Shown piece after piece: positions 22,759 to 64,000 of a DNA stretch of 64,000 nucleotides (position 1 is the first letter of the stretch; every line of letters starts with the position of its first letter). The notes beneath the pieces were generated by a model. The model was given only the letters and a program-made list of their open reading frames with translations. It was not told the origin of the DNA and did no database searches. Source of the DNA: Bremerella volcania. GTDB taxonomy: Bacteria > Planctomycetota > Planctomycetia > Pirellulales > Pirellulaceae. A program made the translations under genes and the position numbers. The stretch is from contig NZ_CP036289.1 of NCBI RefSeq assembly GCF_007748115.1, positions 5,456,001 to 5,520,000 of the forward strand. The letters run 5' to 3'.

Positions 22759-22841
22759 CGACAACCTCGCAGTGACTTCGTGATGTATGCAAGGTAGTCT
22801 AGCGGCAGGCCTATTGGCAAGGAGGAAGCGAACTTTGCGGT

Positions 22842-23696: not shown

Positions 23697-24757
23697 TTGC
23701 TACCTCCTTGGACCCCGGCACTTTCGATGATCTCGTGCATATGATTCAGGGGTGTTACCTTGTCGGCCAGTCCGGCGGCGATCACTTGCCGTGGCATACC
23801 AAACACTACGCAGCTTTTTTCTTCCTGGGCGACTACCATACAGTCGTGACGCTTGAGCAAACGGCAGCCCATGGTTCCATCATCCCCCATCCCAGTCATC
23901 ACGATCGCCATCGCGTCGCGGCCGTATTCATGGGCCATCGAACGAAACAAATAGTCGACCGAAGGTTTGCAGCTTCGTTCCGCGGGATCGTCGGTAATGA
24001 GAATCTCTTTGTGGCCGTTCACGGTCACGACCTTCATCTGCTTGCCGCCAGGGGCGATGTACGCATTGCCTGGCAAGATGACTTGTCCCGTCGCAGCCTC
24101 GTGAACCTTGATCTTGGATGTCCGATCCAGGTCGGCAGCCAGCGAACGGGTAAACACCGGAGGCATGTGCTGGACAATCAACAATGGAACCGAGAGAGTA
24201 GCTGTAAGCTTAGGAAGGACATGGGCAAGAGCAGCTGGTCCGCCTGTCGAGACGCCGATTCCGATAACTTTGACATGTCCCGGCTCGAAGGGACGCGTCA
24301 CCGGGTCGAAGCGAATCGATTCCTCTTCTTGAGCCGGGACCGTTCCCAACTGCTTTCGCAGTCGTTCCTGTAAGACTTTGACTTTGGGCAGCAGATCCAT
24401 TCTCAGCTGAGCACAACTGTCTTCGAGTTTGGACTGATTCGGCTTCAGGACGAAGTCGAATGCCCCAAGCCGAAGGGCCTGAGTGGTTGCCAAAGCGCCG
24501 TGATCGGTCATGGCACTAAGCATGACGACCTCAGGCTTGGTCTGCAGCGATTGCAGTTCGCGTAGCACTTCAATGCCGTTGAGCACCGGCATTTCCACGT
24601 CGAGCGTCACCAGGTCGGGTTGATAGTGACGGATTTTATCGAGTGCGCTTTTGCCATCCGAAGCAACGGCAACGATCTCGACACCGGGGCACTCCGACAA
24701 CGTGTCCCGGACGACCTTCCTGAACAAGGTCGAGTCGTCCACAATTAACACACGCAT
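23687..24757 (-). CDS. cheB: Chemotaxis methylesterase/glutamine deamidase CheB
   Basis: Removes receptor methyl groups when phosphorylated. The receiver domain (1-120) has D7-D8, phospho-acceptor D53 and K105. The linker leads to the methylesterase domain with catalytic S170 (GIGVSTGGPAA), H197 (IVQHMPP) and D293 (MTGMGDDG). The 356-residue size is usual. ATG 24757 begins the receiver directly (MRVLIVDDST); an ATG at 24838 would add 27 unfamiliar residues but lies only 3 bases after the receptor stop, so it cannot be excluded. Confidence 0.95.
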   Translation of the reverse strand: MRVLIVDDSTLFRKVVRDTLSECPGVEIVAVASDGKSALDKIRHYQPDLVTLDVEMPVLNGIEVLRELQSLQTKPEVVMLSAMTDHGALATTQALRLGAFDFVLKPNQSKLEDSCAQLRMDLLPKVKVLQERLRKQLGTVPAQEEESIRFDPVTRPFEPGHVKVIGIGVSTGGPAALAHVLPKLTATLSVPLLIVQHMPPVFTRSLAADLDRTSKIKVHEAATGQVILPGNAYIAPGGKQMKVVTVNGHKEILITDDPAERSCKPSVDYLFRSMAHEYGRDAMAIVMTGMGDDGTMGCRLLKRHDCMVVAQEEKSCVVFGMPRQVIAAGLADKVTPLNHMHEIIESAGVQGGSKCR

Positions 24758-24841
24758 GGTTTCCGATTCCTTTTTGACCCCGGTTGAGTCGCCTGGATCC
24801 CCATGCTGGTGGACGAGGCGACTTGTTTTCTTAATCATTTC

Positions 24842-27019: not shown

Positions 27020-27114
27020 TTGGTCTTACCTTTGAATTGGGGGGCGTGGGAACCCAAAGGGTGTTCCATTCAAGATTTCAGGGTTGCTGATGATGGGGGT
27101 AAAGTTCTGTTGTG

Positions 27115-27573
27115 CTATTCCACATCCAGGACTTCTTGGACATCCAGAATCACGACGATCTCCGAATCATTTCGGTAGACGCCTGTGAAGTAGCGACCAT
27201 CGGCCCCAGAAATGTTGGCCGGGGCAGGGATGATGCTGTCGCTTGTAATCGAAATGATGTCGGCGATTTGATCCACCCAGAGGCCGATCGATTCATCACC
27301 TGACCGGACGATCAGATTCCGACTCTGTGGTGTGACTTCAGCCAGGCTGAATCCGAGGATGCGTCGCAGGTCGATAACCGTGGCGACGTCGCCACGAAGA
27401 TTAATCACGCCGCGGACATGCTCGGGTGCGTGTGGGATTTCCGTAAGATCGAGGTTGCGATTGATCTCTTGCACATAGTCGATTGGCAAAGCCAGGAGCA
27501 ACTCGCCAACGTAGAACGTGGCAAATTGAAGCTCAATCGTAGCGGACTTGGCAGCAGTGGCGGCAGAACTCAT
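27115..27573 (-). CDS. cheW: Chemotaxis adaptor CheW
   Basis: The 152-residue scaffold couples CheA to receptors. The paired SH3-like fold is recognisable: ELQFATFYVGELLLALPIDY, VQEINR, HAPEHVRGVINLRGDVATVI, and GLWVDQIADII. The ATG at 27573 overlaps the cheA TGA as ATGA, with GGAAGGA 8 bases upstream, so translation is coupled. A second ATG at 27582 is possible but has no Shine-Dalgarno of its own. Confidence 0.95.
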   Translation of the reverse strand: MSSAATAAKSATIELQFATFYVGELLLALPIDYVQEINRNLDLTEIPHAPEHVRGVINLRGDVATVIDLRRILGFSLAEVTPQSRNLIVRSGDESIGLWVDQIADIISITSDSIIPAPANISGADGRYFTGVYRNDSEIVVILDVQEVLDVE

Positions 27574-30245
27574 GACAAACATCCTTCCAGCACTTCAGGC
27601 TTGAAATGCGAAACATTGCGCCCCGTCTTCTTCGGATTCAGTAGTCGCCCGACAGCCGACATGACGCGTTCACGATCCATTTTGATTTGATAGTCATCAA
27701 CGCCGGCGTCCACACCGCGAACTTGATCTTCATCACTGGCCAACGAGGTCAACGCGATGACCGGGAGATAACAAGTGTGGGGATCCGACTTGATCTTTTT
27801 CGTGAGTTCGAAACCGTTCATACGGGGCATTTCGATATCGGTAATAACCAGATCGATTGCATGTTCACCCGACTTCAGAAGCTCCCAGGCCTGGGCACCA
27901 TCTTCCGCTTCGACGATTTCAAAGCCTTCGGTTGCCAGGTAGTCTTTGGCCTGTTTACGGAAGAAGGACGAGTCTTCGGCCAGCAAGATCTGAAACGGCG
28001 ACTCTTCATTGGCAGTGACTATTGGCTTCTCCGCGAACCACTTCGGATGTGCTGAGAAGGCCAGTTCGTAGAGGTCGACAATACGGATGGTTTTGTCGTC
28101 AACGACGATCGAGCCTGCGATGCCCGGTTCGCGAAACGTGTTTCCGTCGATCTCGGCCGCCACTTCACGAATGTCGTTCAGCTCGGCGGCAATCAAGCCG
28201 ACTTCACGGCCGTGAATCTGGAATACAACCACATGCACGTTATCCATTTCAGGACGTGGCTGAGCCTGAACGTGAGCTTCGATGGTCAACAGCGGTAAGG
28301 AAGTCCCGCGATACTGCAGAAGTTCTTGTCCGCCGACGGTATCAATTTGCTCGGTACGAATACGTTCGATCCGCGAAATGAGGCTCATCGGGACGGCGAA
28401 CTGTTCGCCGGGAGCATTGGTAAACATGAGCAAAGACTGACGTTCGCTCGAGAGCGATGCATCGTCGTGGTAGTTATCCTTCTCGTTTTCCTGCTCATGA
28501 GATCGCAGGTCGGTCTTGGCTGCAATTCCCGAGACGTCGAGAATCGGAGCGACATGGCCGTCTCCCAGAATGGTCGCACCGGCCAGGCAACTGCACGTCT
28601 TGAGATGACGTCCCAGCGGCTTGACGACGATTTCTTCCGAGTCGTCAATTTCGTCAACGATCAACCCGTAACGGAATTGACCACTTTCCACGACCACGAT
28701 TTGACGAGCACCTATGCTTTCACTCGATTGATTGGCAAAGTTCAAAGCTTGATCGAGGTCGACCAGCGGAAGCAAGGAGCCCCGCAGCCGCAACACGCGA
28801 GCACCCTTGACCTTGCTGATCCTTTGCGAGGCCTCGCTCGCTCGGACGCGAACCAGTTCGACGATATTGACTTGTGGGATCGCAAAGCGACGATTGCAAC
28901 TGCGAATCAACATCGATGGAATGATTGCCAAAGTTAGCGGCAGCGTAATCTGAACCGACGTTCCTTTGCCAAGCGTCGATTCAATATCGACCGAACCGCC
29001 GATCTTCTCGATATTGGTTCGGACGACGTCCATTCCCACGCCGCGGCCGCTGACGTCGCTGATCTTTTCAGCCGTCGAGAAGCCCGGATGGAAGATGAGC
29101 CACACGGCATCACGATCGGACATCTGGGCGGCACGTTCCGCAGAGATAATCTCCTTGGAGACCGCTTTGTCCTTAAGTCGGTTCGTGTCGATGCCGCCGC
29201 CATCGTCACAGATATCGATGCGAACCTTTCCGGCCTGGTGATAGGCTCGCAGGGTGACGGTACCGGTCGGCTCCTTCTGGCTGGCCATCCGCTTTTCAGG
29301 CATTTCGATACCGTGATCGACCGAGTTGCGCACCATGTGGGTCAGTGGATCGCCGATCGCTTCGATGATCGTCTTGTCGACTTCGACCTCGCCACCTTCC
29401 ATGACGACGTTACACTGCTTGCCCAACTTAGCCGAAAGATCGCGAACGACTCGCGGAAACTTGCTGAAGACATTGCCGATGGGCTGCATGCGCGTCTGCA
29501 TGATCGCTTCCTGCAATTCGCTGGTCACTTGATCCAGACGAGCGGCAACCGCTTGAAGGCTGTTTCCATCGGCGTTGTTGACCGTTTGCAGAAGCTGATT
29601 TCGACCCAGCACGAGTTCGCCGGCGAGGTTCATCAGTCGATCTAAAACACCCACTTGTACGCGGATGCTGGATTCAACCTGGGGCGTCGCTGGCGCTCGC
29701 TGAGATACGGTCGCTTCCTTGAATTCGGCATGATCATCGACACGAGCATTCTTTTGCGCGGGCACCGGAGGGATCGCAACGGCTTGCTTTGCGCCTTGCG
29801 AGTCAATCTCTTGAGCAGCTTGAGCTGCATTTAGAGACTTGGCAGGCGAGGTACTGACTTCTCCCTCGAAAATCTCATTCAGCAAAGTGATATGCGCCGA
29901 GACATCCACCGTGTTGGAGTTCTCGATGTCATTGATCAGGCCAGAAAGAGCATCGGCTCCTTTCAGCATGACGTCAACAATCTGAGAATTGGGAGTCAGT
30001 TCCTCAGTTCGCATCTTACCGAGGACATTTTCCAGTGCATGGGCCAGTTCGTTGACGCGAACGAGCCCCATGAACCCCGCAGCTCCTTTGATCGAATGGA
30101 TGGCCCGGAATACCTTGTTCACAAGGTCGACATCAATATTGGCCCCATTCGCTTCGATCTCGAGCAACTGCCCCTCGACGTCGGCGAGATGTTCTCGTGA
30201 CTCGGTTACGAATTCAGCTAACAGCGCAGGGTCATCGAACGACAT
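27570..30245 (-). CDS. cheA: Hybrid chemotaxis histidine kinase CheA with second CheW domain and receiver
   Basis: 891 residues. Order: Hpt domain with phosphorylated H50 (RAIHSIKGAAGF), a Pro/Ala/Gln-rich linker (about 125-195) in place of a clear CheY-binding P2 domain, dimerisation domain (GVLDRLMNLAGELVLGRNQL), ATPase domain (MVRNSVDHGIEMPE; DDGGGID; GRGVGMDVV), one CheW-like domain (about 455-590), a second CheW-like domain (about 610-735) and a C-terminal receiver with phospho-acceptor D803 (VITDIEMPRMNG). Hybrid CheAs of this type carry their own receiver as phosphate sink or relay. GGAGAGG precedes the ATG. It is the second gene of the operon, after a small GspE-N-like gene. Confidence 0.95.
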   Translation of the reverse strand: MSFDDPALLAEFVTESREHLADVEGQLLEIEANGANIDVDLVNKVFRAIHSIKGAAGFMGLVRVNELAHALENVLGKMRTEELTPNSQIVDVMLKGADALSGLINDIENSNTVDVSAHITLLNEIFEGEVSTSPAKSLNAAQAAQEIDSQGAKQAVAIPPVPAQKNARVDDHAEFKEATVSQRAPATPQVESSIRVQVGVLDRLMNLAGELVLGRNQLLQTVNNADGNSLQAVAARLDQVTSELQEAIMQTRMQPIGNVFSKFPRVVRDLSAKLGKQCNVVMEGGEVEVDKTIIEAIGDPLTHMVRNSVDHGIEMPEKRMASQKEPTGTVTLRAYHQAGKVRIDICDDGGGIDTNRLKDKAVSKEIISAERAAQMSDRDAVWLIFHPGFSTAEKISDVSGRGVGMDVVRTNIEKIGGSVDIESTLGKGTSVQITLPLTLAIIPSMLIRSCNRRFAIPQVNIVELVRVRASEASQRISKVKGARVLRLRGSLLPLVDLDQALNFANQSSESIGARQIVVVESGQFRYGLIVDEIDDSEEIVVKPLGRHLKTCSCLAGATILGDGHVAPILDVSGIAAKTDLRSHEQENEKDNYHDDASLSSERQSLLMFTNAPGEQFAVPMSLISRIERIRTEQIDTVGGQELLQYRGTSLPLLTIEAHVQAQPRPEMDNVHVVVFQIHGREVGLIAAELNDIREVAAEIDGNTFREPGIAGSIVVDDKTIRIVDLYELAFSAHPKWFAEKPIVTANEESPFQILLAEDSSFFRKQAKDYLATEGFEIVEAEDGAQAWELLKSGEHAIDLVITDIEMPRMNGFELTKKIKSDPHTCYLPVIALTSLASDEDQVRGVDAGVDDYQIKMDRERVMSAVGRLLNPKKTGRNVSHFKPEVLEGCLS

Positions 30246-34646: not shown

Positions 34647-37600
34647 ATGTCTCGTTTCTTCATTTATCGTCCAATCTTCGCGACCGTGATTTCGATCGTG
34701 ATCGTGCTGGCCGGCGCCGTCGCTCAAACGACGCTTCCGGTTGCTAAGTTTCCGCAGATCACTCCTCCCACGGTTCAAGTGACCGCCTTCTACCCGGGTG
34801 CCAACCCGCAGGTAATTGCGGAAACGGTCGCGTCACCGGTCGAACAGGAGGTCAACGGCGTTGAAAACATGTTGTACATGTCTTCGACATGTGCGGACGA
34901 CGGTTCCTACACGCTGAACGTCACGTTTGAGACCGGGACCGATATGGACATGGCGACGGTCTTGGTGCAAAACCGCGTTGCCATCGCTAATCCAAAGTTA
35001 CCGGAAGACGTGAGACGACAAGGGATCACCACCAAGAAACAGTCAACCCAGATCGTGCAGTTCATTACGCTGACGTCGGACAACCCTACGCACGATAGTC
35101 TTTACCTTAGTAACTACGCGACAATCAATCTCCGTGATGAGCTAGGTCGAATCGATGGCGTTGGTGCGCTTAACATCTTTGGAGCAGCCGACTACAGCAT
35201 GCGTATCTGGCTCGATCCGTCGAAGTTGGAAGCCAGAAACCTGACGACTGAGGACGTCATTGCCGCCATCCGAGAACAAAACGTTCAGGTAGCAGCAGGT
35301 CGCGTCGGAGAACCACCCACTTCGGACGATACCTCCTTTCAAATGGTGATCAATACCCGCGGACGCCTGGAAGAAGCTTCCCAGTTCGGAGATCTGATTC
35401 TCAAAACCGGGGGTGAAGGTTCAGGGATCACCCGCCTGCGAGATCTAGCGTCCGTCGAGCTTGGTGCCAAGACGTACAACTATCAAGCAACTGCGAATGG
35501 GATTCCATGTGCGGCAATTGCCGTGTATCAGCTTCCTGGCGCGAATGCGTTAGACCTGGCAGCTGCGATCGAAGCTCGAATGAAGACGATGGCCGAGAAG
35601 TTTCCTAAGGGGGTCAAGTACGCGATACCTTTCGATACGACACGCTTTGTCGAGGCCTCGATCGCGGAAGTCTATTCCACCCTCTTCGTTGCCGTACTTC
35701 TCGTTGTGCTGGTGATCTTTATTTTTCTTCAGGATTGGCGAGCCACCCTGGTTCCCACAGCAGCCATTCCTGTCGCCTTGATCGGTACGTTTGCCGTGAT
35801 GGCAGGGCTTGGCTTTTCGATCAACATGTTAACGCTGTTTGGAGTTGTCCTGGCGATCGGAATCGTGGTGGACGATGCGATTGTCGTCGTCGAAAACTCG
35901 GCCCGACATATCGAAAGTGGCCTCTCGTCCAAAGACGCGGCAGTCAAAGCGATGGATGAGATCACGGGTCCCGTGATTGCCACCACGTTGGTGCTCTTGG
36001 CCGTGTTTGTGCCAACTGCCTTCATGGGAGGAATTGTGGGGCAGATGTATCGACAATTTGCCCTTACGATTTCTGCCGCGGTGGCGATTAGCACGATCAA
36101 TGCGCTTTCCTTGAGCCCGGCGCTGTGCGGGTTGCTTCTACGTCCCAGCGAAGAAACCAAGAGAAAAGGGGAGTTCATACCACGCACGGTGATTGCCCTT
36201 TTGCTGGCCATTCTTGCCTGCTGGCTGGCATATCGATTGTTATCCGGGATGGGGATGACGTCTTGGGCCGTTGCGATTGGTGCTCCGATCGTTGCCGCAC
36301 TCGCTGGTTGGTTTTGTGCGGCGTTTCTCAATGGAATGCTGCGTGGATTTTTCAACGGTTTCAACTATGTCTTTGACCATACGACCGGCATTTACAAGAG
36401 CATCATCGGAGGGCTTGTTCGACGAATAGCTGTTGCCGTGATCCTTTTTGTCGTGCTGCTGGGAATCACCGGGTATGGACTTCAGTCGATTCCAACCGGG
36501 TTTGTCCCTCTCGAAGACCAAGGGTACGCGTTCGCGAATATTCAACTACCCGACGCCGCTTCCCTCTCAAGAACCGACGAAGTGCTTCGAGAAATCGACG
36601 CCATTGTCAGCGAAACGCCGGGCATCGCGGATTGGGTTTCCATCTCGGGGTATTCGATCCTCAGTGGAACGGTAGGATCGAATAGCGGGCTCGTGGCGAT
36701 CGTGTTTGAACCCTGGGAAGATCGTCAAACGCGAGAATTGAGTCAGGCGGGCATCCTGCAGGCTCTTCAAAAACGTCTTTCACAACTCAAGAAGGCCAAC
36801 GTCGTGGTCTTTCCTCCGCCACCGATTGATGGCCTGGGAAATGCCAGCGGCTTTCAAATGCAGATTCAAGACGTGGGGGGCGCGGGCATGACGACGCTGC
36901 AGACCGTAGCCGACGAAATGGTTCGCGACGGCAACGCCCAGTCGGGCCTGACGCGAGTGAACACCACCTTCCGCGCCGATGTTCCGCAACTGTATGCCGA
37001 CATCGATCGTACCAAGGTCAAGAGTCTTGGCATCTCCTTGAATTCCGTATTCGAGACGATGCAGGCGTTTATGGGGTCGGCTTATGTGAACGACTTCAAT
37101 CGGTTTGGACGTACCTGGCAAGTTCGCGTGCAAGCCGACCAGAGTTTTCGCGTCAACCCCGAGGATCTCCTTCGCCTGGAAGTTCGAAACAACCAAGGCG
37201 AGATGATTCCACTGGGAACGTTCACGACGGTGAAGCGAACGGTGGGGCCGCAAGTGATCCAGCGATACAACCTTTACCCGTCCGCTCAGATTAACGGTGA
37301 ACCCGCACCAGGCTACAGTTCGGGAGAAGCGATCAACTTGATGGAGCAGATGGCCGCTAATAAGTTTCCTCCTTCCATCTCGTATGAATGGACAGGCATG
37401 TCGTACCAGGAGAAACTCTTGAGTGATTCCGACTCCCTGACCGAAAACCCAACGTTTATTCTGGTTCTATCCATCTTTTTGGTGTTCTTAGTCCTCGCGG
37501 CGCAATATGAAAGCTGGACCAGTCCAATGGCCGTGATCGCTGTCGTTCCGCTGGCGGCGCTCGGCGTCGTTATTGCACTGCTAGCGCGAGGCGCCGACAA

Positions 37601-37982
37601 CAACGTCTATACCCAAATCGGCTTGGTGCTTCTGGTCGCCCTGGCGAGTAAAAATGCGATCCTGATTGTCGAATTCGCCGCCGAGCAGCGACGCGACGGA
37701 AAGGGGCTGTTCGATTCCGCGATCGCAGCGGCAAGCTTGCGTTTTCGGGCGATTCTGATGACAGCCTTCTCGTCGATTCTAGGCTTTTTGCCACTCTTGA
37801 TCGCATCAGGAGCTGGGGCCGCGAGCCGACAAGCGGTGGGTAATGCCGTCGTCGGAGGTATGATCGCAGCCACGATTTTCTCGCTTGGATTTGTCCCGTC
37901 CTTCTTCGTCATCTTCCGTGGGCTCGGCGAATGGCTGTGCGGTTCGAAGGATGACGACACATCGAGGCCGCCTGCTGCCTAG
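34647..37982 (+). CDS. RND efflux pump, hydrophobe/amphiphile (HAE1) family
   Basis: A 1111-residue inner-membrane trimer-forming transporter like AcrB/MexB. It shows N-terminal TM1 (MSRFFIYRPIFATVISIVIV), two large periplasmic loops (about 30-335 and 575-890), the proton-relay pair D409-D410 in TM4 (GIVVDDAIVVVENSARH), and ALASKNAILIVEFAAEQRR near TM11. Substrates are probably lipophilic drugs, detergents or metabolites. A longer-than-usual cytoplasmic insertion (about 505-560) follows TM6. No outer-membrane TolC-like gene is adjacent. Confidence 0.95.
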   Translation: MSRFFIYRPIFATVISIVIVLAGAVAQTTLPVAKFPQITPPTVQVTAFYPGANPQVIAETVASPVEQEVNGVENMLYMSSTCADDGSYTLNVTFETGTDMDMATVLVQNRVAIANPKLPEDVRRQGITTKKQSTQIVQFITLTSDNPTHDSLYLSNYATINLRDELGRIDGVGALNIFGAADYSMRIWLDPSKLEARNLTTEDVIAAIREQNVQVAAGRVGEPPTSDDTSFQMVINTRGRLEEASQFGDLILKTGGEGSGITRLRDLASVELGAKTYNYQATANGIPCAAIAVYQLPGANALDLAAAIEARMKTMAEKFPKGVKYAIPFDTTRFVEASIAEVYSTLFVAVLLVVLVIFIFLQDWRATLVPTAAIPVALIGTFAVMAGLGFSINMLTLFGVVLAIGIVVDDAIVVVENSARHIESGLSSKDAAVKAMDEITGPVIATTLVLLAVFVPTAFMGGIVGQMYRQFALTISAAVAISTINALSLSPALCGLLLRPSEETKRKGEFIPRTVIALLLAILACWLAYRLLSGMGMTSWAVAIGAPIVAALAGWFCAAFLNGMLRGFFNGFNYVFDHTTGIYKSIIGGLVRRIAVAVILFVVLLGITGYGLQSIPTGFVPLEDQGYAFANIQLPDAASLSRTDEVLREIDAIVSETPGIADWVSISGYSILSGTVGSNSGLVAIVFEPWEDRQTRELSQAGILQALQKRLSQLKKANVVVFPPPPIDGLGNASGFQMQIQDVGGAGMTTLQTVADEMVRDGNAQSGLTRVNTTFRADVPQLYADIDRTKVKSLGISLNSVFETMQAFMGSAYVNDFNRFGRTWQVRVQADQSFRVNPEDLLRLEVRNNQGEMIPLGTFTTVKRTVGPQVIQRYNLYPSAQINGEPAPGYSSGEAINLMEQMAANKFPPSISYEWTGMSYQEKLLSDSDSLTENPTFILVLSIFLVFLVLAAQYESWTSPMAVIAVVPLAALGVVIALLARGADNNVYTQIGLVLLVALASKNAILIVEFAAEQRRDGKGLFDSAIAAASLRFRAILMTAFSSILGFLPLLIASGAGAASRQAVGNAVVGGMIAATIFSLGFVPSFFVIFRGLGEWLCGSKDDDTSRPPAA

Positions 37983-53845: not shown

Positions 53846-56800
53846 CTACGCCGTTGGCACGTTTCCGGACACGGCAATTTCATCGAGCAATTGCTTGAGC
53901 CGTTCTGGCTGGATGGGTTTCGACAGATAATCGTCCATGCCTGCTGCCAGGCAGTTCTCTCGGGCACCATCAAGGGCATGCGCTGTCATAGCCACAATCG
54001 GCGTGCGTTGCCCGTGCTCTTGTTCCCACTGCCGGATTGCGTCGGTCGCCTGGTTGCCGTCCATCTCCGGCATTTCCAGATCCATCAACACCAGGTCAAA
54101 CTTTCCACTCTGATAGCGCTCCAGTGCTTCACGCCCTGTACTGGCGACCTCACAGGTATGGCCAAAGACCTCGAGAATACCTGTGGCCACTTCCAGATTA
54201 ACGGGGGCATCGTCTGCGAGCAGGATATGTAGCGAACGTTCCCCTGACGAATGGTGTAGCAACTCAGCATCTCGCGTGGCAGGATAGGCATTCTTGGCCG
54301 ACTCAATGGCACTGATCAGGTCACTGGCAGAAATAGGTTTCGCAACCGTGACCATGCTGCAGTGGTCAATCTCGTCTGGGACGCCTGTGGGTGGAATGAG
54401 CACGATGTGAGGCAGGTTGAATAGATCCACCGAATCAGGCGTCAAGAACCATTGCTCTAACTTGTCGGAATCAACTTCCCAGTCAAGAACCAGAACGGCG
54501 TCATCGGCGGTACCTTCTTGACCGCGCCTCAGGGCCTGGTCGAGGGTCACATGCTCCAAACTCGCCCCAGCTTGCTCAAGGATCTCTTGATACAGCTTCC
54601 GCGAGGTGGGATGCTCTGAAACGAGTAGGACATGCTCGTTGGACAATGGCTTGGCGGACTTGTCCGATTCGGTTTGGGTCGACTTCAGTGGAATGGACAC
54701 GTGGAAAGTACTTCCCTGCCCCAGTTCACTTTCGACCCAAAGCTTGCCTTCCATAAGGGCCACGATTTGTGATGAAATGGACAGACCAAGTCCCGTTCCA
54801 CCGTAGCGGCGGGTGGTCGAACTATCGCTTTGCTCGAAAGACTCAAAGATGGTCGACAGCTTGTCCTCAGGAATCCCCGGTCCAGTATCTCGCACGGAAA
54901 TGTGAAGCTGTTGCACGTCATCATCGGAGTCCACCGTACAATCGATGAACACTTCCCCGTGATCCGTGAACTTAATTGCGTTGCCCACCAAGTTCATAAT
55001 GACCTGGCGCAGTCGGCATGGATCTCCCTCGATAGACTCCGGCACGCTCGGAGCGATACGGTACAGTAACTCCAAACCCTTTTTGGCGGCATTCACGGCC
55101 AGCGGCCGAACCGCCGCGGTCACGACACCCTGCGGCTCCATCGGGATCGCTTCCAAATGCATCTTCCCAGCTTCAATCTTAGAAATATCCAAAATATCGT
55201 TGAGAAGGCTGAGTAACGCGTCGCCAGACTGATTGATTACCGTCAAGCAATTCCGCTGCTGTGAAGTGAGTTGGGTTCGCAGAGCTAACTCGGTCATGCC
55301 TAAGATGCCGTTGAGCGGCGTACGAATTTCGTGGCTCATGGTGGCCAGGAACCGACTCTTTGCCTCGTTGGCCGTCTCGGCAGCAACCTTCGCCACGCGC
55401 AGCTCTTCCTCGGTCAGGCGAAGTTCCTTGGCGGTGCGTTCCAGTTGTAGATTCGATCGTGCCAACTCGGCGGCTCTCGTTTCCGCGGCCGCCGTTCGCT
55501 CAGCAACACGTTGTTCGAGAGTTGTATTCAGATTCGACAGTTCCATGAACCCTTGGGCATTTTCCAAAGCAGCACCGGCGATCGTCCCCACGAAATCAGC
55601 CAGGCGTTCTTCGTCAGTACCAAACAAGCCAACGACTTGAGAATGCGTCACGCACACACATGCTGAAAGGCGATTTCGAACGAATATCGGTATGTAGATC
55701 GACGAACGCGGGTTTGTCGTATCGCGGTGCAAGTCTCCTTCATTACTCGTCTCGATAAACGTCATTGCTCTGCCGGCTTCCGTCGCCCGCTGCAGGTTTG
55801 CTCTGTCGAACGGAACATCCGTTGCGCCAAGCACGACGGTAGGTTCCGCCATCGCATCGTCACGATCAAACTCGAGCAACAGGCTGTTCTCACCTCGCAG
55901 CAAGCGCGTTGCTCCCAGCGAAGCCTCCTCGTAAATCCGGTCGGTCGAAAGTGCGGAAGCGATTCGACGTCCAACGTGTAGCACGGTATCGAATCGATCG
56001 ACCAACGATAGCGTGCCCATCTGACCGCCACGCGTGCTTTCCGTCTCTTGTTCAATAGTCAACTCATCCAAGAGCCGTTGTGACTCGCGTTCGTCCTGGA
56101 CGGCGTCTGCCCACCGAGCCGACTGCCCCACTTCGCTTCGATGCTGCAAAGTCAGTGCCTGTTCGTAGATCGACCCTAACTGTTTCGCTATCGCAAAAGC
56201 CTTGTCGAAAAGGCGGCGCGACTTGCGGTAGTTCCCTCGCATGGCCGCGATGATGGCGCGTTCTCGGATCGCTCGTGGTAAGTCATTGGGACACACCTTC
56301 GCGGCGGCAACCGCACGAAGTGCGATTTGCTCGGCTTTCGCAAGCCGTTCATTTCTTAGCGCGGGGGCATGTGGCAGCGTGGATTCGGCTTGCATGCGAA
56401 TGGCCGTGGCCAGCCAGGGCAGGGCAGGTGCCGTGTAGGCATTCTGGATACCTGCCGAAGTTGCCGTATCGACTGCTTGCTCAAGCGCCGTGATTGCCGA
56501 CTCGATCTTCCCTTGGTAAAGGTCGCGGATACCCACCGCGAGGTAAAGCTGAGTCTTGCCTTGAGCGTCGTGACGCTTCCGAGCAAGTTCCGCTTCAAAT
56601 AGCGAATCCGGGATGTTACCAAGAGTTGCCCGTGCCCACACATCGAGAATGATACCCGATGCTTGCTCGTCCCCTAGCTCCACGCCTGACCGATGGTTGT
56701 TCTTGGCTTCGGCAATCGCCTCTCGGAAGTTGCCCAGGTGATATAAAGACGCAGCCACTTGGTATCGGGCAATATGAACTTGCCAGTAGTCGCCGGTCCG

Positions 56801-59779
56801 CTCCAATAACTGGATGGCTTCGCGTCCCTTCTCGATACTTTCTCGATATTGGCCGGCTGCGTAAAGAGAACAGCTGTAGTAGTTGAGTGATTGCCCCTGA
56901 CCCCAGACGTCGTCGAATTCTTTCCGCAGCTTCAGGGACCGTTGAGCATAGGCAATTGCTCGCTTGAATAGAGGAATCAAACAAGCCACAGGTGCATGCA
57001 AGGAATAGGCACTTGCCAATTCGGGGCTCGGCAGAAACTCTTCGGCGTAATTCAAACCTCGCAAGTGTGCCGACAAGCATTCCAATTTGCTTCGACAGTA
57101 CCAACATCCGTGTGCCAGCAAGGCAAAAAGCTGAATTGCCAACCGCTCGGAGTCATTGGGGGGTCGTCTTTTCCTCTGAAGCATCATCTTTGGAAAGCAG
57201 GAATGCAGGACCTGTTTGATAGCTTCCCACATTAAGAGCATCGTCCCCAGAAACTTATTCCGGGGGACCATACAGCCCAAGCTTCTTAGTGCCTTTTCAA
57301 ATCCTTTAGTAGCGGCTTCCATGTCTCCGCGCTTAAACGACAACTCGGCCAACTTGCTCTGGATCTTGGCGCGATCGAGATCCCCTTCCGCGAGTTCAGC
57401 CGCCAGTTCAAACTGCGGTGCGGCCTCCGGGTATTGCCCTCGCAGCATCAGCGCATCGCCAAGTCCCTCCGCAATCCGGAAGCGGATGGATTTCGGTTGG
57501 TTCTCGGCACCCTTCTGGGCGATCCGATATTGCCGTTCGGCAACTTCCAAGGAGAACTGACTGCGTGCTTGTTCGGCAGCCTGCAGGGCATAACCAAGAG
57601 CTGTTTCCGAGGCGCCCGCTTCGTCCAGATGGTAAGCAATTTCGGAAACCCGTGAGGGACTGTGCTCCTGTAAATGCAATGCCGCCCTGAGGTGCAGTTG
57701 TTTTTGTTCGTTCGGATCAAGCCGATCTAACAACGAACTGCGGATCTTATCATGCACAAAAACGAACTGACCACCATCAGCACGTTCCCAGATCAGGTTG
57801 CGGTCTTTGGCATGTAGCAAAGCTCCCACTGCGGCTGGAACCGTCAATCTGGCCAACGCTGCGGCGGTGTCTAAGCTGAATTCTTTACCAACCAACGCGC
57901 CCACGGAGAGCAATTCGATCGTTTCCTCCGGAAGCATCTCGATTCGATGTGCGAGAAACGAAGCTGCTTCTTGCGAAGACTGGATGTCTCGGATAGCACG
58001 CTGGTCGACTTGCCAGGTACCATCTTCGGCGACTAATGCCCCCGATTCGACCAAACCGCGCAGAACGGCCGAGGCCATAAACGGACTACCGCTGGCCAGT
58101 CGTGTCACAACCTCCACGGCTTCCGTCGGCAGCGAGCCTGCCATCGACTCAGCCAACTGGCGAATTTCTTCCTTACGCAAGGTCAACAAACAAATGTGTT
58201 GGCACCTTGGGATTGAACGCAAAGCGTGATCATCGCTCACTTCTTCGCTACGGAACGAACAGATCAGAGCACTATGGCGTTCCGATTGCCGCGTCTGCGT
58301 ATGCCAGCGACGAATGAGACTATGGGTCAACGCATCGGCCCACTGACAATCGTCCAGAATGATGATCGCTGGACGATCTCGACTTCCCAAAGCTCCAAGA
58401 AATCGAATCAACGAGTCGATCGTTCTGTTTTCACCAAAAGCAGCGGGCGACTGATCGGTAATACGGCCGGTAGGACGTAAGGCAGCTCCCAATGATGGCA
58501 AAGCGGCAACCAAGGCATCCGCCATGTCACCCACTTGTTCCTGCACCCGGCGGAGAAGATCTTTATCTTTTTGAGCGACCGACAGAAAGCCATCGACAAT
58601 ACCCTCGAGCGTGCGATAAGGACGTTGGCCGACATTCGTTGTCGCTTGTCCACGCAACACCCAGTTACTATTGCGACGAGCCACGCGCACCGCTTCCACC
58701 AGCAAACGGCTCTTCCCGAGGCCTGACTCCCCTTCGACCAGGATCACGGAGGATTTACCCTGCCGAGTTTCGCGGATGAAATTATTGAGCTGTTTGAGTT
58801 CTTCTTCTCTGCCAACGAACGTTGGCTCGGTTAACGTGCAGCGGCGATCACAAGCGCCGATCGCCACGTGACCTCCCGATTCCCCGGCAGCAAGCGATTC
58901 TTCGATTGCCAACAAGTCGGCAACCACGGCGCTTGCCAGCTGGTAGCGATCGTGCGGATCCTTTCTAAGTAGCCGTTGGACCAATTCGTCCAAATCTCTC
59001 GGAACTTCGGGGTTTATCGTAGGCAAATCAGGTACCGGTGCCGTTAGGTGCTCGAACAGAATCGCACCGGCCCCTTGCCCCTGAAAGGGAAGCCGCCCAG
59101 CGAGGCAACGAAACAGAAGGATCCCTGCCGCGTACAAGTCAGAAGGGGGCCCCACGTCCGTATCAATGGAGCCCGCTTCTTCAGGCGACATGTATGAGAC
59201 TGTTTCGCACTCTCGTTCGCCGAAGAGTTGATCGGGGTGAAATCGCTTGACGGTGCCGAACCCTCCAAGAGTCACACGACCAATCAATCCCGGCTTTCCA
59301 TTTTGCGACCTGACGAACATACTCGATGGCGTCACATCACGATGAAGCGAACCTCGCCGATGAAGTGAGTCGAGCGCCGTGAAGATGTCCTTGCCAATTT
59401 GAATCGTCTCTTCGACGGAAATCGGCTTGGACGTCAGCATTTGACTTAGGGACACTCCGTCATTCCAGGGCATCACCACGTAGAATTCCGTGCTTGTTCG
59501 CACAAAATCGATCACGGGAACTAGCTGGTCATTGGGATGCTCCTGTCGGATCGACGCTTCGAACTCGATGCGCGCACGTGTCCCTGACGTCACGGACTTC
59601 AGTTCGATGGCCTTGATTTCAACGCCTTCGCCTGTCTCTCGATCATTTCCCCAGTACGTGCGCACAAAGGGTGAATCACCGCTGGATGCGTTGACCTCGT
59701 ACCGCGCAAGAATCTCTTCTGGCACTTCCGACCCAACTTCGCCTGGGGCGAGTCTTGTTCCCGCTTCTCGATCCACCAT
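53846..59779 (-). CDS. Multidomain hybrid sensor: Ser/Thr-kinase-like, AAA ATPase, TPR, GAF, histidine kinase, two receivers
   Basis: 1977 residues, soluble. Order: kinase-like domain (about 27-295; K56, H146-R147-D148, but GFG at 173-175 instead of DFG), AAA-type ATPase (about 318-600; Walker A GESGLGKS at 350-357, Walker [12 protein letters not shown]), a long TPR-like helical region (about 690-1200), GAF (about 1260-1410), histidine kinase with H1483 ([16 protein letters not shown]), ATP-binding N and G boxes ([29 protein letters not shown]), a degenerate receiver (about 1715-1835; D1766 but no N-terminal acid pair) and a good receiver (about 1850-1970; D1900, [16 protein letters not shown]). 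There is no Hpt domain. The layout resembles the serine/threonine-histidine dual kinases of cyanobacteria and other filamentous bacteria. Confidence 0.93.
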
Positions 59780-60185
59780 GGTCCTATTTCGTTCTCATCT
59801 ATGGAATCGCTCCGGCACTGGGCAGGTGGGAATCCCACCTCATCCCGTGCCTCATCAATTCCTGTTACTCAGAGAGAATGCTGCACCTCCATAAGGCAAA
59901 ATCCGCGCGCGTTTCTGGCGCACGAAATCAGCTAAACCATAGCTTTCTTTCGCGGGTAATCACGAACTGAGATACTTATAGCGCTTACTGCGCAATACGT
60001 ATGGGTCATAAGGGGCACTTAATTGATCAAAGTTACGTAAGCACACCCCCCCTTATGTCTAAATAGCGACTTTCTTGGTTGATTTTCTCATCCTTACCTA
60101 TTCTGATGTAAAGGCGAGTCAGGCCGCATTCATCTGTTTGCGGCGAAATTTGCCCATTTTGGAACCTGTGTGTTAGGTATTAGCC
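59780..60185. other. Divergent control region between hybrid sensor and methyltransferase genes
   Basis: 406 bases serving both genes. A perfect inverted repeat AGGTGGG-AAT-CCCACCT (59824-59840) lies about 45 bases before the sensor start and could be an operator. A GCGCGCG-rich stretch (59906-59923) and an A/T-rich middle are also present. No clean -35/-10 pair was found for either direction. Confidence 0.4.
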
Positions 60186-61301
60186 ATGATACAGTCGAAT
60201 GATTCGACCACTTTCAGACTACCAAGTGTGATCGAATTCTTCTCGAAGGACGTGGCGGAATTCAAGCGTCAGCTTACTCAACTGGAAAGCGAGATCGACA
60301 AGGACGCCATCCCGCAACGAAACGATGAGTTTCACAAGCGAACGCTCGCCGCCTTTCAGCAATCTCAAGCAGCTTGTCGCGCTTTCGAGCGAGCCCACGA
60401 AAGCGATCCCGACCTGATCAAAGAAGTTCAGGCACGCTTTCGCGACGAGACTTCTCCCTGGTTTTCGCAAAGTTGGATCGCCAATCGCGCGCGTACCAAA
60501 CCTAGCGGTTTCGCTGGGGACTATGAGATGCTCGTTAAACTATACGAGGAAGAGACGCCTGCCCGGGGTATTGGGGCGTATATCGACCTGTGCATCTCGG
60601 AATTGCCTCTAGCCAACGCCGTTCGTGGACGCAAGGACATGGTACGCGAGTACCTGCTCAACGAGATTGCAAAGCGAGAAGGTGATCTTCGGATCATGGA
60701 CATCGCTTGTGGTCCATGCCGCGAGTTTTTGGATTGGCCGGAGTTTGAGGGTCGTAACATTGAAGTCGTTGCGATGGACAATGACCCGGTCGCTTTGGAG
60801 TATATCGAAGCTACGGTCGCTTCCCAGCTTCCGCCTTCGACCACTCTCAAGCCGGTTCGCTTTAACGCCATGCGAGCTCGCAACGCGGAAGCCACCAAGG
60901 CGAAGTATGGAACATTCGATATAATCTATAGCGTCGGCTTGGCAGACTACCTTACCGACGAACACCTAATAGGTATCTTTAGCGGGCTGGGTGAAACCCT
61001 ATCGGATGGCGGTGCTCTCGTAATCGCCTTTAAGGATACCGAACAATATGACGAAACCCCCTATCAATGGCATTTAGACTGGTTCTTTTATCAAAGAACG
61101 GTAGAGGACGTGTTAAATGTTTACGATATGGCGGGATTTAACACGGACAAGATGGAACTGACGCGGGATCGCACTGGGATCATCGTCAACTACGTCAGTC
61201 ACCGTGCTCCGGACTGCATTCGACGCCTCGACCCGGCAGAATTGCCACGTCCAGCACGTGCTGGGAGAATCGCCAAAAACGGCAAGGTCATCGAAAGCTA
61301 G
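60186..61301 (+). CDS. SAM-dependent methyltransferase, possible fatty-acid methyl-ester (PhcB-like) signal synthase
   Basis: 371 residues, soluble. A helical N-terminal domain (about 15-100) precedes a GFAGDYEMLVKLYEEET segment (108-124) and the SAM fold: motif I MDIACGPCRE (171-180), acid loop VVAMDNDP (195-202), FDIIYSVGLADYLTDEHLIG, then GGALVIAFKD. From memory, the G-[FY]-A-G-D-Y-E block is shared by proteins annotated as 3-hydroxypalmitate methyl ester (extracellular factor) synthesis enzymes, the PhcB-type quorum signal makers of Ralstonia; this was not checked. It is divergent from the hybrid sensor gene and convergent with the HD-GYP gene (4-base overlap). Confidence 0.85.
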   Translation: MIQSNDSTTFRLPSVIEFFSKDVAEFKRQLTQLESEIDKDAIPQRNDEFHKRTLAAFQQSQAACRAFERAHESDPDLIKEVQARFRDETSPWFSQSWIANRARTKPSGFAGDYEMLVKLYEEETPARGIGAYIDLCISELPLANAVRGRKDMVREYLLNEIAKREGDLRIMDIACGPCREFLDWPEFEGRNIEVVAMDNDPVALEYIEATVASQLPPSTTLKPVRFNAMRARNAEATKAKYGTFDIIYSVGLADYLTDEHLIGIFSGLGETLSDGGALVIAFKDTEQYDETPYQWHLDWFFYQRTVEDVLNVYDMAGFNTDKMELTRDRTGIIVNYVSHRAPDCIRRLDPAELPRPARAGRIAKNGKVIES

Positions 61302-62401
61302 TTCGCCGTCGGAACGGGTCCGGTGGGAAATGTGACGCTTGGCGACATCTGGGGGAGTTCCGGACAAACCGATGCGTCATTCAGTCGCTGATTAATGTCG
61401 ACGATCTCTTCTTCATGACGGAAGAAGGCGTCGACAATATCAGGATCGAAGTGGGCACCGCTTCCCTCGCGAATGATTTGGCAAGCCTTCTGGTGACTGA
61501 AGGCTTCCTTGTACACGCGTGCCGTAGTCAGGGCATCGTAGACGTCTGCCACCGCGACAATACGGCCACAAAGAGGAATTTCTTCTCCTTTGAGACCGTA
61601 AGGATAGCCACTGCCGTCGTATTTCTCGTGATGCGAGCAAGCAATATCACGTGCGAAACGCAAGTAGGCGGCTTCGGGCTGTTCTCGCACGGCGGCATCC
61701 AAAGTATGGAAACCTACGAGTGTATGCTGCTTCATGATCTCGAACTCTTCCGCTGTCAGTTTGCCCGGCTTGAGCAGCACGTGATCCGGGATGCCAACCT
61801 TTCCGATATCATGCAGGGGACTGGTCAGGTAAATCGTCCTCACGTAATCCGCATCAACGACATCGGCATACTTTGGCTGTTGCGAGAGATCTTCAGCCAG
61901 AAGTCGCGAGTATTCCCGCATTCGCTCCAGGTGAGCGCCTGTTTCTGGATCGCGTGATTCGGCAAGCTTGGCCAATGCGAATATGATCACGTTGCGGCTT
62001 TCGAGCGACACAATTCGATTGGCCGCGCGGAGCCGAATGTGAAGTTCTTCAGGGTCGAATGGCTTCGTAATAAAGTCGTCGGCACCCGCCCTCAGTCCAC
62101 TCACGAGGTTGTGTTGGCGATCGAGCGAAGTCAGTAGAATGAAATAAACGTATCCACTCAAAGGACGTTGGCGAACGCGTCGACAAAGTTCGACCCCAGA
62201 CATCCCCGGCATTTGCCAGTCGGACAATACAATGCGGAAATCTCCCTGATAGATCATCTCCAGGGCTTCATTCCCATCTCGTGCGGTTTCAACAGGAATT
62301 CCAAGCGCACTAAGAACGTCACTCAGCATCCCCAGGCACGCTGGATCATCATCTACCAGTAGGATCGGCGATTGGCTGGTATCTCGATCGTGAATGATCA
62401 T
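61298..62401 (-). CDS. Response regulator with HD-GYP domain (RpfG-type)
   Basis: 367 residues. The receiver (about 11-130) has acids D17-D19, phospho-acceptor D61 (IVLSDWQMPGMSG) and K113. The C-terminal HD-GYP domain has the DPETGAHLERM helix, HDIGK (197-201) with two metal ligands, SHHEKYDGSGYP (256-267) and the GYP signature at 265-267. Such proteins hydrolyse cyclic-di-GMP. The start ATG (62401) shares one base with the stop of the Hpt gene (TAATG), so the two are translationally coupled. It is the likely output of the local phosphorelay. Confidence 0.94.
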   Translation of the reverse strand: MIIHDRDTSQSPILLVDDDPACLGMLSDVLSALGIPVETARDGNEALEMIYQGDFRIVLSDWQMPGMSGVELCRRVRQRPLSGYVYFILLTSLDRQHNLVSGLRAGADDFITKPFDPEELHIRLRAANRIVSLESRNVIIFALAKLAESRDPETGAHLERMREYSRLLAEDLSQQPKYADVVDADYVRTIYLTSPLHDIGKVGIPDHVLLKPGKLTAEEFEIMKQHTLVGFHTLDAAVREQPEAAYLRFARDIACSHHEKYDGSGYPYGLKGEEIPLCGRIVAVADVYDALTTARVYKEAFSHQKACQIIREGSGAHFDPDIVDAFFRHEEEIVDINQRLNDASVCPELPQMSPSVTFPTGPVPTAN

Positions 62402-62778
62402 TAACTTCCCCCGGACCGATGTTGCGATATGAGTTGGCTCAATCGGCAACATTCGTCACGAATATCAGCAAGAGATGCTTCGTCGTAGTTCAAATCTTCT
62501 TCTTCCGCTTGTCTTTCCAAGTGCATCGCATACCCTGCCAGGCGATCCGCGGAAACGGTTAAGGAAGTCCCTTTGATGCGATGGGCAATCCGCGCAACTT
62601 CTTGCGAGTTCAGCTTTTCAACCGCCTCTTCTAGAGACTCTAGATCGTCTGCCAAGGAATCTTGAAATCGATTCAGGGCCTTCTCGACGAGATCGAGACG
62701 ACCAATACATCGTGACTTCAAAGTTTCCCAATTGATCGACTGTTCTTCAGCCGGCGCGTGCGTTTGCTGCAAGCTCAT
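62401..62778 (-). CDS. Histidine phosphotransfer (Hpt) protein
   Basis: 125 residues, all helical. The Hpt motif is EVARIAHRIKGTSLTVSADR with H66 the phosphorylated residue. The domain is otherwise free-standing, so it can carry phosphate from a hybrid kinase receiver to a separate response regulator. ATG 62778 follows GGGAGG by 6 bases; a longer frame to 62949 adds a basic, unlike N-terminus and is rejected. It is coupled to the HD-GYP gene. Confidence 0.88.
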   Translation of the reverse strand: MSLQQTHAPAEEQSINWETLKSRCIGRLDLVEKALNRFQDSLADDLESLEEAVEKLNSQEVARIAHRIKGTSLTVSADRLAGYAMHLERQAEEEDLNYDEASLADIRDECCRLSQLISQHRSGGS

Positions 62779-62992
62779 CAACTGCCTCCCAGGGACGTAA
62801 CCTATGCACTGAGAAAAGTTTGCGGAGTGCAAAAACGGGATATCTTCCGAAAGATAGGTTACATTTCTCCGAGGGTCAAAACGCATGGCCTCTGGCCGAT
62901 CAACTGGCGGAACATCGGGAACAACCCGCATAACACCTTCGGATACCACCAGATAGCGTAGCGCATAACACGCAAGCGCCCAGAATTTGACT

Positions 62993-64000
62993 CTAATACC
63001 GAATCTGGACTCCCATCACCAATGAGTGGGCACTGATGCGGTGCGAGATGGTGTCATTGGCACCAAACGGTGGGGAAGGAGCCGGCCCTGAAACCGACGA
63101 ATCAACCAAATACACATACGCGAGATTCAGTTCGACTCCATCGGTCAGCAAACACCCGGCCCCCAGTGCAATGTTATGCGTTTGAATCAGTGGGTTGGCG
63201 ACATTCGTGAAGACGTCTTCCGAGCCGATCGGGTTCTGGTTGAAGTTATACCCAGCCCGCAGTTTCCACAGATCGCTTAGCTGGTATTGGGCTCCAATCG
63301 CACCGGCGAACACGTTGTCCCATCCGAGGTCACGAAAACCCTGCGTATTGGCATAATCGAAATAACGTGCATCTGCAGCAAAGACCCAACGTTCCCATCC
63401 GTAGTATGCCAGGCCCGTGGAAAGAATCATGGGATAGTCGAGATCAAAGCGAACGACCCCTGACGGCGTAAAGAAGCGGAACTGTTCAAACCATTGGGTG
63501 CTTTTGATTGTGAAACCAGCTCGCCAGCAACTGGGACTGGCGTAATAGATGCCCCCTTGGATACCCCCGCCCCAGTGAACGCGATTGCCGGACCCCGCCG
63601 TGCTGGTGGGTGTAATTGCCGAAGGTCCAAGCGGATCGAACTGCATGCGGGCAGCAGTAATCGTTGGTGCCACGCCGATCGACCAACACTCGCCCAATCG
63701 TAGTGACATGGTTGGTGCGATCTGCATGATTTCCGCGTCGGCGAAAACAGGGCCGGATGCCAGAAGCGGATTACTTGCATCCATAGGCATGTTGTTTCGG
63801 AAACCACCAATCCCATAGACTCCCATGCCAATGGTCAGCGGAGTTCCTTCCAAGTGATCGACCCAACCGACGGCCGGGATAATGGCTACGCCTGCTTCTC
63901 CATTGGTCGTGTTGGTCGTGCCACTCACGGTCGACGAAAGCTCGATGTCAGCCAATAGGCCTTCCATGCCAAACGAGACTTCGGACTGCTCGAGATAGCT
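62993..64000 (-). CDS. FadL/OmpP1-type outer-membrane transporter (5' end outside the window)
   Basis: The visible 335 residues run from the window edge to the stop TAA/TAG at 62993. The strands alternate polar and hydrophobic residues and close with VMGVQIRY (terminal aromatic), as in outer-membrane barrels; GAIGAQYQLSDLWKLRAGYNFNQNP, DLDYPMILSTGLAYYG and EGVELNLAYVYLVDSSVS-type blocks match the FadL/TodX family of long-chain fatty-acid and hydrocarbon channels. The N-terminal plug and signal peptide are cut off at the right edge. It is 214 bases downstream of the Hpt gene's upstream side and reads the same direction. Confidence 0.8.
   Translation of the reverse strand, partial: SYLEQSEVSFGMEGLLADIELSSTVSGTTNTTNGEAGVAIIPAVGWVDHLEGTPLTIGMGVYGIGGFRNNMPMDASNPLLASGPVFADAEIMQIAPTMSLRLGECWSIGVAPTITAARMQFDPLGPSAITPTSTAGSGNRVHWGGGIQGGIYYASPSCWRAGFTIKSTQWFEQFRFFTPSGVVRFDLDYPMILSTGLAYYGWERWVFAADARYFDYANTQGFRDLGWDNVFAGAIGAQYQLSDLWKLRAGYNFNQNPIGSEDVFTNVANPLIQTHNIALGAGCLLTDGVELNLAYVYLVDSSVSGPAPSPPFGANDTISHRISAHSLVMGVQIRY

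Follow-up and report, generated by a model that had tools for sequence, protein, structure and literature searches.

The locus analysed here comprises five genes at positions 53846..64000 of a 64,000-nucleotide stretch of Bremerella volcania DNA (the window, part of a single-contig genome of 6.5 Mb), and its closest described relatives are the Phc and Rpf systems. Excerpts of two reports describe PhcB as the signal synthase of Ralstonia, with methyl 3-hydroxymyristate or methyl 3-hydroxypalmitate as its product (PMC11960443), and the gene order phcBSRQ in Ralstonia, with homologues in Cupriavidus and Paraburkholderia (PMC6989110). In the Rpf, or diffusible signal factor (DSF), system, RpfC passes phosphate via a receiver and an Hpt to the HD-GYP protein RpfG, and a Pseudomonas relative has an orphan Hpt, as set out in the available text of PMC4504480. 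The Bremerella locus encodes a sensor histidine kinase, a methyltransferase, a receiver-HD-GYP protein, a free Hpt protein and a FadL-type channel, and would unite Phc-type signal chemistry with an Rpf-type relay and output.

As in PhcBSRQ, a methyltransferase of the PhcB family adjoins a histidine kinase and receiver proteins. The kinase of the phc-type operon is short (445 aa in the Paraburkholderia locus L045), whereas here it is a likely soluble hybrid kinase of 1977 aa with pseudokinase, AAA and TPR regions; the output consists of Hpt and HD-GYP proteins in place of PhcR and PhcQ, a FadL-type channel is linked, and some relatives carry an unrelated thioesterase-methyltransferase. No operon of PhcS-type kinase, PhcR and PhcQ was found. 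With Rpf/DSF the locus shares a putative fatty-acid-type signal, a hybrid kinase, an Hpt step and a receiver-HD-GYP output (PMC4504480, same excerpt), and both its domain content and the fused Hpt of eight orthologues are consistent with a histidine kinase-receiver-Hpt (HK-REC-Hpt) relay to a receiver-HD-GYP protein. It differs in that the Hpt is free in the window genome and that no membrane helix is predicted for the sensor, against five in RpfC. The five window proteins gave no Pfam match to an RpfF-like crotonase, nor did the recurring neighbours, which were only partly Pfam-scanned, and neither an RpfF synthase nor a five-helix membrane sensor was found. Because the Phc operon, RpfF and the membrane sensor are all missing, the system is neither Phc nor Rpf; we class it as a new variant among fatty-acyl signalling systems. 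The initial annotation had likened it to the phcB/phcS/phcR quorum locus of Ralstonia, a parallel that holds for the PhcB kinship but not for the output, which is better matched by RpfC/RpfG than by PhcR.

We consider it rather probable that the locus encodes a lipid-signal pathway in full. The PhcB-family methyltransferase would make an acyl methyl ester or a close relative, which would exit and re-enter the cell with the FadL-type channel as its outer-membrane passage. Inside the cell the sensor would bind the ester through its soluble input module (pseudokinase, STAND-like ATPase and TPR array), which would switch the histidine kinase on, and phosphate would move from His1483 to the last receiver at Asp1900, on to the free Hpt and then to Asp61 of the receiver-HD-GYP protein. 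The result would be altered breakdown of cyclic di-GMP and hence, probably, an effect on whether cells live attached or free. The sequence itself shows the set of parts, that they are inherited together, the pattern of fusions and that catalytic residues are intact; from these we infer the substrate, the ligand, the direction of transport, phosphotransfer, the phenotype and any dependence on cell density.

Conservation of the module across planctomycetes, together with the enzyme swap described below, suggests an uncharacterised chemical signalling system. We give even chances to the broader proposal that planctomycetes have a signalling class of their own, in which a soluble pseudokinase-STAND hybrid kinase would read an imported acyl methyl ester from an exchangeable maker (a PhcB-type enzyme, a thioesterase-carboxyl-methyltransferase fusion or a polyketide synthase), with cyclic-di-GMP output via Hpt and HD-GYP. 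Chemical signalling in planctomycetes appears little described, and the locus offers candidates for the enzyme, the receptor, the relay, the output and the class of signal; if the reading is right, methyl-ester signalling would reach beyond betaproteobacteria and be joined to cyclic-di-GMP control. In the open-licence literature we found no paper joining phcB and planctomycetes and no planctomycete paper on such a signal-sensor pair, and a review that mentions both 3-hydroxypalmitic acid methyl ester and Planctomycetes leaves the two unconnected in its available part. Among the matches listed, no title on planctomycete or Rhodopirellula quorum sensing names such a system, and leucine carboxyl methyltransferase (LCM) is not joined to thioesterase, quorum sensing or fatty acid methyl ester; in the available part of a Stieleria paper, quorum-sensing activity of stieleriacines is the authors' speculation only (PMC7293339).

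Methyltransferases beside the sensor

The window methyltransferase (60186..61301, + strand, 371 aa) is an S-adenosylmethionine-dependent enzyme by its Pfam Methyltransf_25 match and carries the motif TKPxGxxGDY. Its kinship to PhcB was judged via the operon enzyme of Paraburkholderia graminis and not via the Ralstonia PhcB sequence: hhalign aligned the window family with this enzyme at a probability of 99.8 (E 8e-29) over 275 columns, bearing out the PhcB likeness that the initial annotation had noted, and the motif KPxGxxGD ahead of the Rossmann core is common to both. On its plasmid, the P. graminis operon runs methyltransferase, kinase, receiver and a receiver with an unknown C-terminal part (HisKA-HATPase, receiver and receiver in L045), an order that agrees with phcBSRQ. 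We propose that the window enzyme is an acyl carboxyl methyltransferase that would make the signal. Against solved structures, direct sequence comparison was of no use and a profile search gave only two weak methyltransferase matches. An AlphaFold2 model reached a mean pLDDT (predicted local distance difference test) score of 90.4, and its top fold match was 3ocj, titled merely as a possible exported protein.

The most telling evidence on the substrate comes from relatives in which the PhcB-type gene is replaced. In eight loci (L111, L119, L121, L123, L135, L136, L137 and L152) the sensor adjoins a gene of about 465-540 aa, divergent from it in five and on the same strand in three, and no PhcB-type gene was found near the sensor. 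All four of the replacement enzymes that were scanned (L111, L119, L121 and L123) have an LCM-family methyltransferase match over cut-off (PF04072, TIGR00027), and a YiiD_C/DUF4442 hotdog-thioesterase-like domain was seen in each; the other four were found with a profile built from these. Profile comparison detected no similarity between the thioesterase-LCM and PhcB-type families (probability 0.2). The branches starred on the sensor tree force at least two changes of enzyme, the tree being a quick one without bootstrap that excludes five same-genus loci as well as sensor frames shorter than 1500 aa, carries a long-branch warning for L109, L129 and L131, and has L138 labelled by hand as thioesterase-LCM, its enzyme lying on another contig. 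A FadL-type gene is linked in six of the eight replacement loci.

Fatty acids are set free by thioesterases, and carboxyl groups are what LCM-family enzymes methylate, so the chemistry shared by the two enzymes would be that of an acyl-chain methyl ester. Two unrelated likely carboxyl methyltransferases, one of them with a thioesterase-like domain, point to such an ester as the product and are the strongest, though indirect, evidence on the substrate; their exchange beside one conserved sensor amounts to a natural experiment that constrains the ligand. Genome G036 has two further sensor paralogues, each about 50 bp downstream of a polyketide-synthase frame, that form tandem synthase-sensor units (L110 and L112, about 2.64-2.67 Mb); one of these sensors has a fused Hpt, and the one synthase scanned by Pfam is of the reducing kind and has a thioesterase. 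The thioesterase-LCM enzyme was found in none of the 294 genomes of a phylum sample, an uninformative result, since the class is sparsely represented in this sample and none of its genomes is a known positive.

A scan of species genomes yielded 46 loci of the window-type methyltransferase: 30 in Planctomycetota (two of them titled just 'bacterium' and assigned by match to other sampled genomes), six in Omnitrophota, three in Spirochaetes, five of the Desulfobulbus/Thermodesulfobacteriota kind, and one each in Nitrospiria and Clostridia. A sensor match lies near the enzyme in 28 of the 30 Planctomycetota loci, and the other two (L060, L078) end at a contig edge on the sensor side; Hpt and HD-GYP genes usually accompany the pair, and FadL often does. 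Outside Planctomycetota, a histidine kinase or HD-GYP protein is encoded near the methyltransferase in 13 of 16 loci, and neither was found near it in L085, L093 (which meets a contig end) and L095. The kinases scanned in these loci are of a seven-transmembrane (7TM)-GAF type (L079, Omnitrophota; L081, Spirochaetes).

Three Omnitrophota loci (L079, L080, L087) combine the methyltransferase with a kinase and receivers, and L079 and L080 also with an HD-GYP protein; they are a membrane-sensor counterpart of the same idea, judged by the 7TM-GAF kinase of L079, the sole one scanned. In the Desulfobulbus-type loci L091, L092 and L094 the methyltransferase adjoins one or two HD-GYP genes (with FadL as well in L091), and the profile used found no adjoining histidine kinase. 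On a Pseudanabaena plasmid (L047:6007-8626) a gene of the same family converges on those of a histidine kinase and a receiver. A type I polyketide synthase encoded on an Enterobacter ludwigii plasmid (L049:5727-8864) has a PhcB-family region at its C-terminal end, which may free the product in methyl-ester form. A second close methyltransferase copy (G272:C36:189586-190584, L151) has no sensor within the fetched 18 kb.

The sensor and its predicted phosphorelay

The sensor gene (53846..59779, - strand) is separated from the divergent methyltransferase gene by an intergenic region of 406 bp (59780..60185). By Pfam its 1977-aa product consists of a protein-kinase-like domain (residues 38-285), an AAA_16 ATPase (320-498), a TPR array, a GAF-like stretch with matches under the Pfam cut-off, HisKA, HATPase (1585-1699) and two receivers, of which the intact one spans 1852-1965; no Hpt domain was detected by Pfam, which agrees with the earlier description of a sensor that ends in receivers and lacks one. 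The phospho-acceptors are His1483 in HisKA and Asp1900 in the last receiver. Motifs were counted over 46 complete sensor orthologues, including nine from the window's genus: the kinase His, the N box and the last-receiver Asp are each present in all 46 and the Walker A Lys of the ATPase in 44, while the first receiver is degenerate, its acidic pair gone in most orthologues, so that only the last is intact. The kinase-like domain is decayed family-wide (HRD Asp in 14/46, DFG Asp in 18/46), and the window sensor keeps HRD but has Ser153 in place of the Asn and Gly173 in place of the DFG Asp, which does not describe an active Ser/Thr kinase. No 19-residue segment of the window sensor reaches a hydropathy of 1.6, leaving no predicted transmembrane segment, and the protein is therefore likely soluble. 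In L055:3746-9719, from the genome that also gave L038, the sensor frame is interrupted ahead of the last receiver, through a real split or an assembly error, and that receiver is read in a different frame.

Over 1157 columns, the kinase-like, AAA and TPR part of the sensor shows homology to a kinase of Rhodococcus erythropolis whose gene adjoins biphenyl dioxygenase genes and a response regulator, and which we take to be of the BphS/BpdS type that responds to aromatic hydrocarbons. The Rhodococcus sensors, presumably those that bear the BphS/BpdS names, likewise join a kinase-like domain, AAA_16, TPR and a histidine kinase in one protein; they are annotated as AAA family ATPases, and one of the three scanned also has a GAF match. 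They differ in having a HisKA_3 kinase and a response-regulator transcription factor, once beside biphenyl genes, where the window system has HisKA, receivers, Hpt and HD-GYP. Fungal group X hybrid kinases also combine a Ser/Thr-kinase-like domain with a histidine kinase. This group is named in a legend of PMC4965123, and the same joining of domains is described for the HstK-type dual kinases of cyanobacteria in the available part of PMC1262709. In contrast to both, the kinase-like domain here is mostly decayed, and the kinase is linked with a putative acyl-modifying enzyme and with an HD-GYP protein.

Downstream of the methyltransferase, and overlapping its stop codon by four bases with its own, lies the receiver-HD-GYP gene (61298..62401, - strand; Pfam HD_5 and Response_reg). 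It is coupled by TAATG to the free Hpt gene (62401..62778, - strand; Pfam Hpt), as the initial annotation had read from the sequence: the Hpt stop codon TAA and the HD-GYP start codon ATG at 62401 overlap (ttaATG), which gives an HD-GYP protein of 367 aa. The Hpt most likely starts at the ATG at 62778, preceded by a gggagg box, giving 125 aa. All four genes that had been named (sensor, methyltransferase, Hpt and HD-GYP) thus lie where they had been placed. Asp61 and the HD and GYP metal-binding motifs, intact in the window protein, are present in 66/66 aligned HD-GYP sequences, which include paralogues and a few same-genome duplicates, and the phospho-acceptor His is present in 44/44 aligned short Hpt frames. 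The best-scoring solved chain for the HD-GYP profile was 4r8z, a cyclic-di-GMP phosphodiesterase, and we propose that the receiver-HD-GYP protein is a putative phosphodiesterase output.

A free Hpt next to a sensor that lacks one is non-trivial, because few Hpt matches of the window genome are short frames: of 12 matches, 11 exceed the Pfam cut-off and only two of these are short, the locus Hpt and one of 113 aa, with the match below cut-off in a frame of 115 aa. Among the 46 complete sensors, eight have a fused Hpt and none of these has a linked free one, whereas a linked free Hpt lies beside 31 of the 38 non-fused sensors. The seven non-fused sensors without one are L054, L056, L076, L112, L145, L147 and L149. 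The genome of L112 has a free Hpt at its other sensor locus, L129, and the other six have an HD-GYP gene elsewhere in the same genome, with a free Hpt next to it in five (L153, L154, L146, L148 and L150) and the Hpt side off the contig end in L157. Unlinked HD-GYP genes were searched for in eight genomes and were present in six, with none in two (L073, L083). Where HD-GYP genes of this subfamily lie away from sensors, an adjacent HK-REC-Hpt hybrid kinase was found in 18 of 25 loci, including L102, the second copy of the window genome. Together the gene fusions, the complementary pattern of fused and free Hpt and these adjacent kinases support the predicted His-Asp-His-Asp transfer, the chain that the initial annotation had assembled from the same genes.

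Conservation and competing explanations

The order and orientation of the five genes are identical in all eight other genomes of the genus examined, and the pairing recurs across the class. The arrangement is therefore more than a chance one, and the lack of a conserved neighbourhood that would have refuted the initial annotation is not what the relatives show. Sensor and methyltransferase genes are close neighbours in relatives, on opposite strands in 46 of the 47 methyltransferase loci listed. The genome searches scored part of the first-look candidates (e.g. two to three per genome for the sensor, 11 for HD-GYP), so paralogues may be missed. In a class sample of 178 genomes, 28 have the sensor, with a PhcB-type enzyme beside it in 19, a thioesterase-LCM enzyme beside it in seven and on another contig in one, and neither in one; a methyltransferase is thus linked in 26/28 and HD-GYP in 18/28, and both enzyme types are linked in none. 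Nineteen of the 20 strong PhcB-type copies (E < 1e-80) adjoin the sensor, and 17 weaker methyltransferase matches (E 1e-68 to 1e-13) are not beside it. The sensor occurs in seven of the 294 genomes of the phylum sample, and all six genomes with a strong methyltransferase (E < 1e-110) are among those seven. Weak methyltransferase matches in 60 relatives (E about 1e-21 to 1e-9) belong to a mixed superfamily, and of these at least four adjoin a sensor (L109, L120, L129 and L131).

Across 56 sensor loci, ten with incomplete sensors and several on short contigs, Hpt lies within 9 kb of 36, HD-GYP of 38 and FadL of 28; with one locus kept from the window's genus, the corresponding counts among 48 are 28, 30 and 20. 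Five loci (L033, L037, L038, L039 and L075), which come from the same genomes as L051, L052, L055, L057 and L149, had been dropped before the 56 were counted. No enzyme is linked at six of the 56 (L110, L112, L115, L116, L138 and L141). Genes beside the sensor that we take to be DUF1549- and DUF1501-like were dropped as module parts, their recurrence being mainly within the genus.

The FadL/OMPP1/TodX-type outer-membrane channel (62993..64000, - strand; Pfam Toluene_X), which had been noted just beyond the relay genes, is by these counts a recurrent neighbour. Its gene lies upstream of the Hpt gene on the same strand after a gap of 214 bp and is cut by the window end; in the genome the frame is open to about 64234, and a complete frame is available in L114. 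The PF03349 match has an E of 2.7e-13 for the cut window copy and 4.8e-34 for L119, the remaining copies being identified by profile alone. Its position shifts to between methyltransferase and HD-GYP in L040, L041 and L062, and beyond the sensor in L050. In rhizobia, FadL homologues aid the perception of long-chain acyl-homoserine lactones. A soluble receptor and an outer-membrane channel, both for hydrophobic ligands, would make a coherent path.

Several observations weigh against a self-made signal handled by one module. FadL was not seen near half of the sensors, HD-GYP is unlinked in 10 of the 28 sensor genomes of the class sample, and in six of those ten it was not found at E <= 1e-140, although in three of these six the sensor adjoins a receiver-HD-GYP gene that has diverged further. 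At seven of the 25 HD-GYP loci that lie apart from a sensor, the adjacent HK-REC-Hpt kinase is missing: of these seven, L117 encodes a free Hpt and L101 an Hpt within a 486-aa frame, and no Hpt was found at L096, L106, L107, L128 and L132. L115 and L116 have sensor, Hpt and HD-GYP with no linked enzyme, G440 and G474 have the thioesterase-LCM enzyme with no sensor match, and of the 38 phylum-sample genomes in which a methyltransferase was matched (E <= 1e-12), 32 lack any match to the sensor, so the parts are not inseparable. On the substrate side, the fold-search matches of the window methyltransferase are general class I methyltransferases, uninformative on what it modifies, and the thioesterase-like domain of the replacement exceeds the Pfam cut-off in only one of the four scanned proteins (L123). 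Finally, Rhodococcus kinases with the same input module lie near catabolic genes, which makes a food-like ligand possible.

The last point leads to the main rival, a catabolic or lipid-sensing role, which we consider unlikely: the FadL-type channel would admit an external lipid or hydrocarbon, the sensor would detect it as BphS does, and the methyltransferase would modify or inactivate the ligand, with no signal made by the cell. The FadL/TodX family includes hydrocarbon channels, and most of the sensor's input module matches kinases near aromatic-degradation genes. The neighbourhoods point elsewhere: in a clustering of 52 sensor loci, no family apart from the replacement enzyme and those of the module's five genes recurred at more than five loci beyond the window's genus. 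The thioesterase-like domain of the replacement would also suit the release of an endogenous acyl chain, and PhcB itself is a signal synthase in Ralstonia, according to the excerpt of PMC11960443.

It is improbable that the methyltransferase is an adaptation enzyme, methylating the sensor or the Hpt in CheR-like fashion to tune the relay, with no diffusible product. Such a role could account for its close linkage to the sensor, and eukaryotic LCM-family enzymes do methylate a protein C-terminus, but the window enzyme has no Pfam CheR match, no further recurring family could serve as a methylesterase, and its kinship is to PhcB. A small acyl molecule is also what the thioesterase-like domain of the replacement and the polyketide synthases beside two sensor paralogues indicate. 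We regard as slightly less probable still that two independent systems happen to be neighbours, sensor plus methyltransferase and FadL-Hpt-HD-GYP. The Hpt-HD-GYP pair does lie elsewhere in genomes G083, G272 and G452, twice with FadL, yet all three retain both halves; the absence of a linked free Hpt from every fused-Hpt sensor, and the receiver-HD-GYP gene directly adjoining the fused-Hpt sensor in L136-L138, likewise speak against two separate systems.

Elsewhere in the window, a chemotaxis-type cluster occupies 21865-30245 (- strand). It includes a CheA-like kinase with Hpt, two CheW stretches and a receiver (27570-30245, -), a methyl-accepting chemotaxis protein with a weak Cache match (24842-27019, -) and a receiver-CheB protein (23687-24838, -). 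An AcrB-family resistance-nodulation-division (RND) efflux pump is encoded at 34647-37982 (+).

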